From Quadrisphaera sp. DSM 44207 (GTDB taxonomy: Bacteria > Actinomycetota > Actinomycetes > Actinomycetales > Quadrisphaeraceae): a DNA stretch of 64,000 nucleotides. The stretch's first letter is position 1; the number at the start of each line of letters is the position of its first letter. The notes under the pieces were generated by a model, which saw only the letters and a list, made by a program, of their open reading frames with translations, ran no database searches and was not told where the DNA came from. The stretch is from assembly GCF_900101335.1 (NCBI RefSeq), contig NZ_FNKA01000001.1, positions 558,001 through 622,000 of the forward strand, in the 5' to 3' direction. This document shows positions 7,280 to 41,165 of this stretch, in pieces. The position numbers were made by a program, and so were the translations under genes.

Positions 7280-8193
7280 TCACAGCGCCCGCTCCACCAG
7301 CAGCGGTACCGCGCAGGCGTTCAGGGTGTCCCGCCACGTGCACCGCACCACGGCGTGCCCGAGGGCGACCAGCGTGTTGGTGCGCCACCGGTCCCGGTGG
7401 AGGGCCTCGGGAGCGTCGTGGACGGTGCGGCCGTCGGCCTCCAGCAGCAGCAGCCCGGTCCGTCCGCGCCGCCGGGCGCGGAACGGCATGTCGGCGCGCA
7501 GGACAGGTGGCCGTGCTCGTCGCGCACCGGGAGCTGCAGCTCGTCCGGCGGCAGGCCCGCGTCCACGCAGCGCAGCCGCGCGCGGCTCTCCAGCGGCGAC
7601 TCGGCGCGCGCGTCAGCCAGCCCCCAGAGGTCCTGCACGGCGCGGCAGCCCCGTCGACCGGCCGCTCGGTGGGCGGCCTCGGCGAGGCCGCCCACGTCCA
7701 CGCACCCGGACCGCAGCGCGGAGTCCAGGACGGCGAGGGCGTCCGGACGCGGGAGCCGGGGCACCAGGTCGGCCAGCGTGCGCACCGCGCTGGTGACCGG
7801 GATGCCGCCCGCGTCGACGACGTCCTGCGCCGCCAGCTGCAGGCGGTGCACCGCCAGCCGCCTGCTGCCAGCCACCACGGAACCGCCGACGACGACGTCG
7901 ACGAGCCCCGTGCGGGGCACACCCGCGATGTCGTGCAGCGCGGCGGCGCTGCCCAGGCCGACGACCGCGCCGGGCACGGCCGCCACCGCCGAGCGCGCCC
8001 AGGAGCGCTGCAGGAGGTGCCCGGTGCGCGTCGGGTCCACCAGGTGGGTCCCGCGCAGCAGCGGCTCCCAAGCACCGGCGCGGAGGTGGCGCCGCACGAG
8101 CGCCCGCGAGGCGCCCGCCGCCGCCACGTCGCGCCACGTCAGCACCGCGTCCTGGCGCGCGGCCCGGGCGAGCAGGTGGTCCAGCACGTGCAC
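7280..8193 (-). pseudogene. DUF559/AbiEi-like protein, frameshifted
   Basis: Translation from a GTG at 8193 (VHVLDHLLARAARQDAVLTW) gives the usual N-terminal winged-helix-like and AbiEi-like body of actinobacterial DUF559 proteins through ESPLESRARLRCVDAGLP and LPVRDEHGHL. The frame then shifts near 7499-7508; the C-terminal endonuclease-like part (LLLLEADGRTVHDAPEALHRDRWRTNTL, then VVRCTWRD) continues in another frame and stops at 7280. A loss of one base would explain it. The unshifted frame instead runs into meaningless Pro/Ser/Arg-rich sequence to 7321. Either a recent pseudogene or a base-calling error. DUF559 proteins carry a very-short-patch-repair-like fold of unknown role. Confidence 0.75.
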
Positions 8194-8362
8194 CCGCTGG
8201 ATCCTCGAGCCCTCCGCCCCTGCCGCGCACCCGTCGTCGCGCGGCTGTGGACGACGGGACGCGCGCGCGCCCTGTGGGCGGCCGGTGCCGTCGAGCGAGC
8301 CCGTCGGGCAGGGCGCCGGGTCGGCCGTGCGCGCGAGCCGCGCCGCGCCGCAGACTGCTCGC

Positions 8363-39314: not shown

Positions 39315-39559
39315 GTGCCCTCCCACCGCCGGACCGCCGGACGCCGCAGCGGCGCGAGCGTCGCGGCGGCGGGGCGGGCCCTCTCGAGTCCTGCAGCGCT
39401 GGTCGGGCCGGAGGGCGCCGGCGCTGAAGGACGGCCGGCGCCGTTCACCCGGCCGGAGCGGGTGCTGTCGCCCGTGCGGTGCAGCGGCGCGAGCGGTGGC
39501 GTGCGTCGTCCACAGACCGGCGGTGAGCGCCAGCGGAAAACCGCCCCGAGGCGCTAGGT

Positions 39560-39575
39560 TCGTACACGTGTTCGA
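39560..39575 (+). promoter_or_regulatory. Candidate LexA (SOS) box overlapping the DUF222 start
   Basis: TCGTACACGTGTTCGA matches the mycobacterial/actinobacterial LexA consensus TCGAAC-N4-GTTCGA with one mismatch (left half TCGTAC). The GTG start at 39568 lies inside it. 13E12-type DUF222/HNH genes in mycobacteria are known to carry such boxes at this position. Confidence 0.6.
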
Positions 39576-41165
39576 GACGGAGCCGAGCGGCCAGCACGCG
39601 GTGCTGCGCGCACGGGGCCTGGCGCTGGAGGCCGCGCGCCTGGTGCTGGGCTCGTCCGGGCTCTCGCTCACCACCAAGCAGGTGCGCTCGGCGACCCGGG
39701 CGCTGCACGAGGCGCGGCAGGCGCTGGAGGCGGCGCACCTGCACCTGGTGCGCCTGGCGCTCGACGCCGAGCCACCCGGACCTCGCCCCGGCGCCGCGAC
39801 CAGGGCCTTCCTCACGCGCGAGCTGGCGTCGGCTCGGGGCGCGCCCGCTCCGACGTGGACGCCGCCCGGGCCACCGACCCCGACCGCGGCGACCTCCCGG
39901 CGGTCGGGGCGGCCCTGGCGAGCGGGCAGGTCACGCGCGAGCACGTGGACGTCGCGGTGCGCACCCTGACGCACCTGCCGGCCGCGGTGGTGCGCCGGCG
40001 CGGCGCCGAGGTGGACGTCCTGCTCGCGGAGCAGGCGCGCTCCTTCGGCCTGTCGGAGGCCCGCACGCTGGCGCGGCACCTGCTGGCCGCGGTGGTACCC
40101 GACCCCGACGACCGGCTCGACCCGGAGTCGTCCGAGCGCCGCTGCTGGAGCCGCAGGGTCGACGCCACGGGCATGGTCGTGGTCACCGGCCAGCTCGACC
40201 CGGCAGGCGGGGCGCTGTACACCGCCGTGCTCGACCACCTGAGCGCCCCCGGGCGCCCGAGCGACCCGGCTGCGAGGGGCGGCGGTGCGGACGGCGGCGC
40301 GGACGGCGGTGCGGACGGCGGCGCTCCCCCGCTGCCCGGCGTGCTCGACGCGCGCAGCCCCGGGCAGCGCTACGCGGACGCGCAGGTGGAGATGGCGCGG
40401 CTCGCCGCCTCGGCGCTCGGCGTCGGCACCCGCGCGGCCGAGCCGCCCCGGGTGGTGGTGCACTGCACTCCCGAGCAGCTGTCGCCGCCCGAGCCCGGTG
40501 CTGGCGGCGCAGGTGCTGGCGGCGCGGGTTCAGGCGGCACGGGTGGAGCAGGCGCGAGCCCCGGGGCGGCGACGTGCGAGCAGACCGGTCCGCTGAGGCC
40601 CGGCGCCCTGCAGCGCCTCGTCTGCGACGCCGTCCTGGAGCGCGTCCTGCTCGACCGCCACGGGGCCGTCGTCGAGATGCGGGCGGTCGGCCGGTTCGCC
40701 ACCCGGGCGATGCGCCGGGCGCTGGCCTCCCGCGACGGCGGGTGCGTCTGGCCCGGCTGCTCGGCGCCGCCGTCCTGGTGCGACGCCCACCACGTCGTCT
40801 GGTGGACGCGCGGCGGCCCCACGGAGGTCGCGAACCTCGTCCTGCTCTGCCAGGCCCACCACACCGCCGTCCACACCGGTGAGTGGCAGATCACGATGCA
40901 CTCCGGCGTCCCGTGGTTCGTGCCGCCGCGGTGGGTGGACCCGCAGCAGCGGCCGGTGCGCAACACGTTGCACACCGCGATCGCGACGGCTCAGCGCTCC
41001 GGTCGAGCACTCTCGGCGGGTCAGCAGCTGGTCCTGCCGGGTGCTGCGCCTGCACCCCCGTCACCCGGTGGGCTCGCGCCGCCCGAAGGGCCGACGCCAC
41101 ACGACGGGCCAGCCTCGCGGCACGGCGAGCTGCCACCGCACGAGTCGCCCCCACGGGCCGCGTGA
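39568..41165 (+). pseudogene. DUF222/HNH endonuclease-domain protein, 1-nt frameshift
   Basis: First frame from GTG 39568 (VFETEPSGQHAVLRARGLALEAARLVLGSSGLSLTTKQV) covers the DUF222 N-terminus; at about 39830-39840 (CTCGGGGCG) the meaningful frame changes and continues MDAARATDPDRGDLPAVGAALASGQVTREHVDVAVRTL to 41165. Loss of one G in a G-run explains it. The second frame contains the C-terminal HNH nuclease (CVWPGCSAPPSWCDAHHVVWW ... LLCQAHHTAVH) with zinc Cys and His residues. Low-complexity Gly/Ala repeats sit at 40281-40316 and 40499-40555. A translation start inside the second frame (GTG 39855) would give a 436-residue truncated protein lacking the first third of DUF222. Mobile 13E12-like element of unknown role; DNA-damage induced by the box above. 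Confidence 0.75.
40281..40316. repeat. 12-bp tandem repeat, three units, in frame
   Basis: GGCGGTGCGGAC / GGCGGCGCGGAC units encode GGAD repeats in the DUF222/HNH gene. Confidence 0.85.

Follow-up and report, generated by a model that had tools for sequence, protein, structure and literature searches.

The mycobacterial SOS box and a LexA regulon that includes 13E12/HNH genes were reportedly described by Davis in 2002 and by Smollett in 2012. For M. tuberculosis, the accessible part of PMC4181829 lists 13E12/HNH genes as LexA targets, which for this species bears out the statement, made in a preliminary description of the locus studied here, that mycobacterial DUF222/HNH genes are under LexA control. 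In the same organism, five putative HNH endonucleases respond to mitomycin in a RecA-dependent manner (PMC8151990, in excerpt). The consensus of PafBC-type (RecA-NDp) promoters is given as tTGTCRgtg-8nt-TannnT in the available portion of PMC5656591, and some mycobacterial genes, recA included, carry both a RecA-NDp motif and an SOS box, as stated in an excerpt of PMC8223512. The M. tuberculosis lexA gene is leaderless, with its start codon at the transcription start, according to the accessible text of PMC2897130.

Here we compare these systems to a locus in a stretch of 64 kb of DNA, the whole of which is termed the window. In common with the mycobacterial LexA regulon, the locus has the operator consensus TCGAACN4GTTCGA and the gene family, but the operator is fused to a leaderless-type -10 and start codon, and the gene is broken: its 3' ORF matches the 13E12/DUF222-HNH family (PF02720) and its N-terminus lies out of frame. 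The motif and spacing of the PafBC/RecA-NDp promoter are shared by many DUF222 genes, among them five of the five orthologues read; compared to the promoter as it appears in the excerpt of PMC5656591, however, DUF222 genes combine the element with a LexA operator in several registers, and the window copy has lost it. Dual LexA/PafBC control is already known in mycobacteria, and recA of the host genome likewise has both site types; the available text of PMC8223512 on this subject mentions neither DUF222 genes nor a start-codon operator. Like the window gene in our model, for which a leaderless start is predicted, M. tuberculosis lexA is a leaderless actinobacterial SOS gene, but the excerpt of PMC2897130 does not place its SOS box on the start codon. 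In titles and abstract openings of the open-licence literature, no description was found of the embedded register or of its spread outside mycobacteria, although an overlap of box and start codon at M. tuberculosis 13E12 genes may already be recorded.

A candidate operator on the start codon

The locus comprises the following features.

39509..39515, plus strand: TCCACAG, 58-59 bases upstream of the GTG, also in G011 and G012
39539..39546, plus strand: site of the former PafBC (RecA-NDp) element, AACCGCCC here where orthologues have TGTCGGTG
39555..39560, plus strand: -10 hexamer TAGGTT (TAnnnT), its last T being box position 1, 7 bases before the GTG
39560..39575, no strand: putative LexA-type operator TCGTACACGTGTTCGA, one mismatch, backed by enrichment and register at DUF222 genes
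39568..39570, plus strand: start codon GTG, at box positions 9-11 and thus within the operator, presumably leaderless, backed by the N-terminal homology of its frame in relatives
39568..39969, plus strand: 5' ORF of 133 codons, the original N-terminus of the DUF222 protein with an out-of-frame tail, without Pfam match
39815..39850, plus strand: approximate stretch of frame loss, net -1 compared to G006
39855..41165, plus strand: 3' ORF of 436 aa, most of DUF222 and the HNH domain in another frame (Pfam, alignment)
40782..40877, plus strand: HNH nuclease motif region (Pfam HNH)

The preliminary description had reported an actinobacterial SOS box with one mismatch that overlaps GTG 39568, and both points hold. 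TCGTACACGTGTTCGA departs from TCGAACN4GTTCGA only at position 4, is the sole site with at most one mismatch on either strand of the 64 kb, and has the GTG at its positions 9-11. By chance, 0.07 such sites are expected per window and 7 of 100 dinucleotide shuffles contain one; at up to two mismatches the pattern is commoner by chance, with 1.09 sites expected. The arrangement TAGGTT-N7-GTG has the spacing of a leaderless promoter, i.e. a -10 TAnnnT located 6-7 bases before the start, and no clear -35 was recognised by eye at the window promoter. A perfect box on a start codon makes the protein begin with MF[E/D] or VF[E/D], and the product of the 5' ORF begins VFE. Judged by its sequence, 39560-39575 is a putative LexA-type operator that follows a promoter design found widely at DUF222 genes, here located on a broken gene. 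Specifically, we assign a probability of about 0.7 to the reading that it represents a start-codon-embedded LexA operator lying over the leaderless promoter core of a DUF222/HNH (13E12-like) gene.

State of the DUF222/HNH gene

The 3' ORF matches PF02720 (DUF222) with an E-value of 2.5e-21 and 76.7 bits, the cut-off being 24.4. Its HNH region scores 20.9 bits, just below the Pfam cut-off of 21.4, and retains in the alignment the Cys and His that are conserved among aligned relatives. The 5' ORF product matches the N-termini of DUF222 proteins in 8 of 297 genomes and the 3' ORF product the remainder of these proteins in 13 of 13 family genomes, the own genome being included in both counts. As relatives have both parts in a single frame, the window copy is, by this comparison, frameshifted. 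In G006 the N- and C-terminal matches start 270 bases apart in one frame, compared to 269 for the same residues in the window, and G006, G011, G012 and G001, translated over the first 140 codons, each show one uninterrupted frame; therefore a net one base is apparently missing at around 39815-39850. The GC3-high frame changes at about 39800-39860.

The preliminary description took GTG 39568 as the start of a DUF222 gene. This is supported in that the GTG is the probable original start, yet as the sequence stands the frame that it opens closes at 39969 without reaching the DUF222 domain, which lies in another frame, and no single open frame runs from the start codon through the HNH domain. Because the gene is frame-broken, no claim is made of selection on its product. 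A tblastn search with the N-terminal 97 residues against a plasmid collection found nothing.

The break may have arisen through decay or through an assembly error. The latter, with the gene in fact intact, is a serious though less favoured option, to which we give around one chance in three: a single base would suffice, and the same window has a second probable frameshift, at 7504. Both breaks, however, fall in accessory nuclease-like genes, the other neighbouring segments that were tested against Pfam (a part of the genes) belonging to different families. Broken DUF222 genes with intact operators occur elsewhere too (L393 and L399), and the PafBC element of the window copy is also gone, as decay would predict.

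Promoters of five orthologues

The promoters of the orthologues in G011, G012, G001, G009 and G006 were read. All five have TGTCGGTG exactly 8 bases before the -10 and a GTG at N7 after it; TAGGTT is present at the same spacing in four, and G006 has CAGAGT instead. The register of the box is kept, with 2 mismatches in G011, 2 in G012, 4 in G001, 3 in G009 and 3 in G006, and the 16-mer of G011, the nearest relative by box, differs from that of the window in one base of 16. TCCACAG is located at -59 in the window and at -58 in G011 and G012, an anchor suggesting that the promoters are homologous; a search over 120 bases did not find it in the remaining three. Where a TGTCRGTG-type motif would be expected, 8 bases ahead of the -10, the window reads AACCGCCC, and compared to the five orthologues the PafBC element is, on this alignment, lost. 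Since the boxes of the nearest orthologues are weaker, this lineage may have acquired its operator recently or have only a weak one, and since the PafBC element is gone and no clear -35 is seen, the window promoter may be dead.

LexA- and PafBC-type sites in the host genome

The genome (3.2 Mb, 4 contigs) has one lexA and a single DUF222 gene, so that the comparison of upstream regions among its DUF222 genes, suggested in the preliminary description, has no second member. The pattern TCGNACN4GTNCGA occurs 8 times compared to once for the reversed pattern, and the looser LexA pattern with up to two mismatches 176 times compared to 94. Boxes like that of the window are present at core SOS genes of the same genome, namely lexA, recA and an error-prone-polymerase-like gene. 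The site in the window is one of the 8, and two more lie upstream of the lexA match. Another precedes the error-prone DNA polymerase-like gene, which is partial in its locus; the others adjoin genes without known SOS role. Three boxes in total precede the lexA match, one with a mismatch outside the stricter pattern, and two of the three contain the half-site TCGTAC, as in the window. An additional one-mismatch LexA-type box lies upstream of recA. The PafBC-type pattern TGTCRG-N10-TAnnnT was found 19 times compared to once in reverse, and two WYL genes located about 1 kb apart are probably pafBC.

Two further observations concern single sites of this genome. The recA gene carries a LexA-type box together with a PafBC-type site (G000:C2:68384 and 68465), and the LexA-type boxes at G000:C2:738007 and G000:C3:747665 precede a dihydroxyacetone kinase gene (L017) and a contig-end ORF (L003).

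LexA boxes at DUF222 genes across the phylum

DUF222 genes in three sets were searched for boxes over a region that begins 200 bases ahead of the open frame and reaches slightly into the domain, with control palindromes for comparison. The order set consists of 134 genes from 41 genomes, the own genome included, taken by score among the matches listed and excluding genes cut by contig ends and the tail of that list. The phylum set holds 87 of 88 genes fetched, chosen among the matches listed, with one end-cut gene dropped, and the named set 70 of 80 loci, the 10 that begin near a contig end being excluded. Some genes belong to more than one set, and sister genes do not count as independent cases.

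In the order set, among the matches listed, perfect boxes are present at 15 of 134 genes, boxes with at most one mismatch at 27 and boxes with at most two at 49; 60 permuted half-site palindromes give control means of 0.02, 0.13 and 1.98, with maxima of 1, 2 and 12, and the reversed pattern gave none at up to one mismatch and 2 at up to two. As control palindromes reach 12 genes at two mismatches, our claims rest mainly on one mismatch. At this threshold, boxes are present at 24 of 36 genes of family f22 among the matches listed (control mean 0.03, maximum 2), a family which we suspect to be the mycobacteria, and at 25 of 51 genes from 17 other families among the matches listed (control mean 0.10, maximum 1), rising in the latter to 35 of 51 at two mismatches, again among the matches listed. 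The signal is weaker in the named set, many members of which are, by their genera, Microbacteriaceae: 4 of 70 at one mismatch (control 0.10) and 12 of 70 at two (control 1.28). Of 198 genomes sampled across the phylum, 75 have DUF222 at all, among the matches listed, and 85 of the 134 order-set genes (among the matches listed) and 58 of the 70 named-set genes have no box at up to two mismatches.

The linkage had been proposed to extend beyond mycobacteria, and the boxes in the order set and in the 17 other families, far above the controls, agree with this. Going by these promoters, the DUF222-LexA linkage is phylum-wide and reaches far beyond any single genus.

Related but different palindromes, ending in CTTCGA, lie about 56 bases before a candidate start of some Herbiconiux and Corynebacterium-like DUF222 genes (L243, L264 and L272).

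Register of the operator relative to the start codon

Of the 119 distinct boxes found at up to two mismatches, positions 9-11 read ATG or GTG in 70. This codon is both in frame and open in 40 of them, in frame yet closed in 2 and out of frame in 28. The share in frame, 42 of 70 compared to one third expected, corresponds to p = 4.4e-6, uncorrected for kinship. A TAnnnT that ends on box position 1 accompanies 24 of 48 boxes with an in-frame start compared to 4 of 71 others, and the combination of this -10 with an in-frame start at positions 9-11 is seen in 23 of the 119 boxes. A leaderless-type start was assigned to 128 of 221 DUF222 genes; in the window-like register, 26 of these 128 have a LexA match with up to two mismatches and 21 with up to one, compared to at most 8 of 128 at any other offset from -40 to +40 and 0 for the reversed pattern. 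Further preferred places of the box are located 11, 21 and 38 bases more upstream.

RTG at box positions 9-11, taken alone, was considered as proof of an embedded start and dropped, 28 of the 70 being out of frame and 2 closed. Moreover, position 10 is already a T in the LexA motif that PMC4181829 gives for M. tuberculosis.

These data bear on the reading that the 16-mer is promoter and start-codon context only, its likeness to a LexA box being partly luck in the window copy. The orthologues, which keep the -10, the N7 spacing and the GTG as their 16-mers drift to 2-4 mismatches, speak for such a reading, as do the core ACGTG, supplied by the start codon, and the occurrence of a site somewhere in 7 of 100 shuffled windows. 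However, the match of 21 of 128 leaderless-type genes within one mismatch in the exact register, where the reversed pattern gives none even at two, argues for a genuine operator, as does the half-site upstream of the start, which matches though it is non-coding, and the G011 box with its 1 differing base of 16. We thus regard context alone as an unlikely explanation, and return to the embedded operator.

The 221 genes fall into promoter classes as follows: start inside the box (A) in 32, -10 after the box (B) in 21, box before a PafBC element (C) in 12, -10 inside the box (D) in 9, PafBC element only in 42, box elsewhere in 36 and neither in 69. A quick tree of 87 rows, used only for the scatter of the classes as its deep branches are weak, contains 29 class changes, which suggests that the classes were gained and lost repeatedly.

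The composite TANNNTCGAACNNRTGTTCGA (TAnnnT, box and RTG) occurs in 42 of 396 phylum genomes, and its reverse in 0. Of 30 composite sites that were read, one per genome, 17 lead to DUF222; in 15 cases the domain is in frame with the start inside the box, and L393 and L399 are broken. Five others lead to UvrD-helicase-like genes, one to an Eco57I-type methylase (L373) and seven to genes to which no family was assigned. Another 20 chosen sites, nine from one genome, lead to DUF222 in 14 cases, to UvrD-like genes in two, to RuvC in one and to no family in three. Pfam confirmed UvrD in 3 of 3 tested among the seven UvrD-like genes, as well as RuvC and L373; L376 and L387 gave no Pfam match. This recurrence of the same start-codon operator at related actinobacterial genes suggests a common, compact damage switch.

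Several individual loci are of note in their own right. Embedded operators at UvrD-like helicases, ruvC and an Eco57I-type methylase are found in L388, L390, L392, L395, L396, L417, L418, L403 and L373, of which Pfam was run for L388, L390, L418, L403 and L373 only. In G311 (2.5 Mb; L375, L401-L409) the composite pattern is matched 31 times and DUF222 genes number 20, and the 10 of its sites that were read lead to 9 DUF222 genes and one ruvC. DUF222 genes with perfect embedded operators include the frame-broken L393 and L399, and L383, which stops early.

PafBC elements at DUF222 genes

The motif TGTCRGTG, allowing up to one mismatch, was sought before an exact TAnnnT at spacings of 2 to 15. 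At spacing 8 it precedes 50 of 134 order-set genes, among the matches listed; other spacings reach at most 2 and the opposite strand 0. In 40 of the 48 PafBC-type genes for which a start was found, an in-frame start lies 6-7 bases after the -10. The element is present at 21 of 36 genes of f22, at 3 of 51 genes of the other families (both among the matches listed) and at 7 of 70 named loci. By a looser rule it is found at 62 of 134 order-set genes among the matches listed, 18 of which also have a box with up to two mismatches. CCACAG was also sought as a conserved motif ahead of the element; its signal is weak, since in 56 promoters it occurs 10 times at -27 to -29.

The prevalence of this motif at spacing 8, including the five orthologues read, could indicate that PafBC governs the DUF222 family and that LexA plays no part at the window gene, the more so as the genome has the WYL gene pair and the 19 PafBC-type sites described above. 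However, the window copy is without the element, 31 of 134 order-set genes (among the matches listed) have a LexA box with up to two mismatches and no PafBC element, and in the 17 other families, among the matches listed, the element is found at 3 of 51 genes compared to 35 of 51 with such a box. An exclusive role of PafBC is accordingly improbable.

Proposed mechanism

For the embedded LexA operator, we propose the following sequence of events. Transcription would begin at or beside GTG 39568, a triplet that serves as first codon and also forms the centre of the operator. A LexA dimer bound there would extend over the -10 at its downstream edge, the start point and the initial codons, and thereby block open-complex formation. 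Once DNA is damaged, LexA would cleave itself under stimulation by RecA and leave the promoter free, yielding a leaderless mRNA. In the orthologues, PafBC activation and LexA derepression may act together on one promoter. The window copy would be decaying, or misassembled in one base; as the net loss of one base cuts the frame, derepression would here yield only a short, probably useless peptide. LexA binding, leaderless transcription and damage induction, as well as the loss of function of the window copy, are what we infer from the arrangement of these elements. A programmed frame change that restores the full-length protein is highly improbable: both parts are retained with high GC3 in their own frames, but G006, G011, G012 and G001 are uninterrupted over the first 140 codons and no known slippery heptamer was recognised by eye.

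With slightly better than even confidence, we extend the embedded-operator model to Actinomycetota as a whole. The nucleases of the DUF222-HNH family, joined in some lineages by ruvC and by uvrD-like helicases, would share a compact damage switch, in which a LexA operator abuts the -10 and contains the leaderless start codon. On the family's PafBC promoter, operators would have been gained repeatedly in at least four registers, which would place a presumed sequence-specific nuclease, composed of a ParB/Noc-like helical domain and HNH, under two damage sensors at once; single copies would decay, and the switch outlive the gene. If correct, many DUF222 genes of as yet unassigned function could be classified as damage-induced from their promoters alone, and true DUF222 start codons corrected to the RTG inside the box. 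The embedded operator would also provide a test case for a repressor whose site doubles as the first codon of a leaderless mRNA.

Predicted structure of the DUF222-HNH protein

The AlphaFold2 model of the intact orthologue L203 (49 sequences; pLDDT 83.8) is helical in its N-terminal part and has an HNH domain at the C-terminus. For neither L203 nor its N-terminal domain did Foldseek find a PDB match with E at or below 0.001, and the searches of solved structures and of NCBIfam yielded weak HNH hits or unrelated ones but no relative of DUF222. In VIA-align, ParB/Noc/Spo0J DNA-binding domains ranked at the top for L203 (12 rows, Z 7.0-9.1, 94-112 residues, 2.4-4.0 A), followed by IscB, Cap5 and McrA-type HNH domains with Z of about 6. 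The N-terminal domain alone (pLDDT 92.4) again gave twelve ParB/Noc/Spo0J rows with Z 6.9-9.0, the next being at 4.0 or below. The resemblance of residues 50-182 of the L203 model to ParB/Noc/Spo0J DNA-binding domains, which neither sequence search nor Foldseek found for the DUF222 N-terminal domain, is taken as a lead only, because Z below about 13 for helical folds may reflect a common arrangement. The frame break of the window copy falls within this ParB/Noc/Spo0J-like N-terminal part.

Finally, a second probable frameshifted gene is located in the window at 7283-8220 on the minus strand, with the break at 7504 according to the GC3 map and Pfam. Its segment 7504-8220 resembles an AbiEi_4-like N-terminus and 7283-7504, in a different frame, a REase MTES_1575-like C-terminus, both with Pfam scores below the curated cut-offs.
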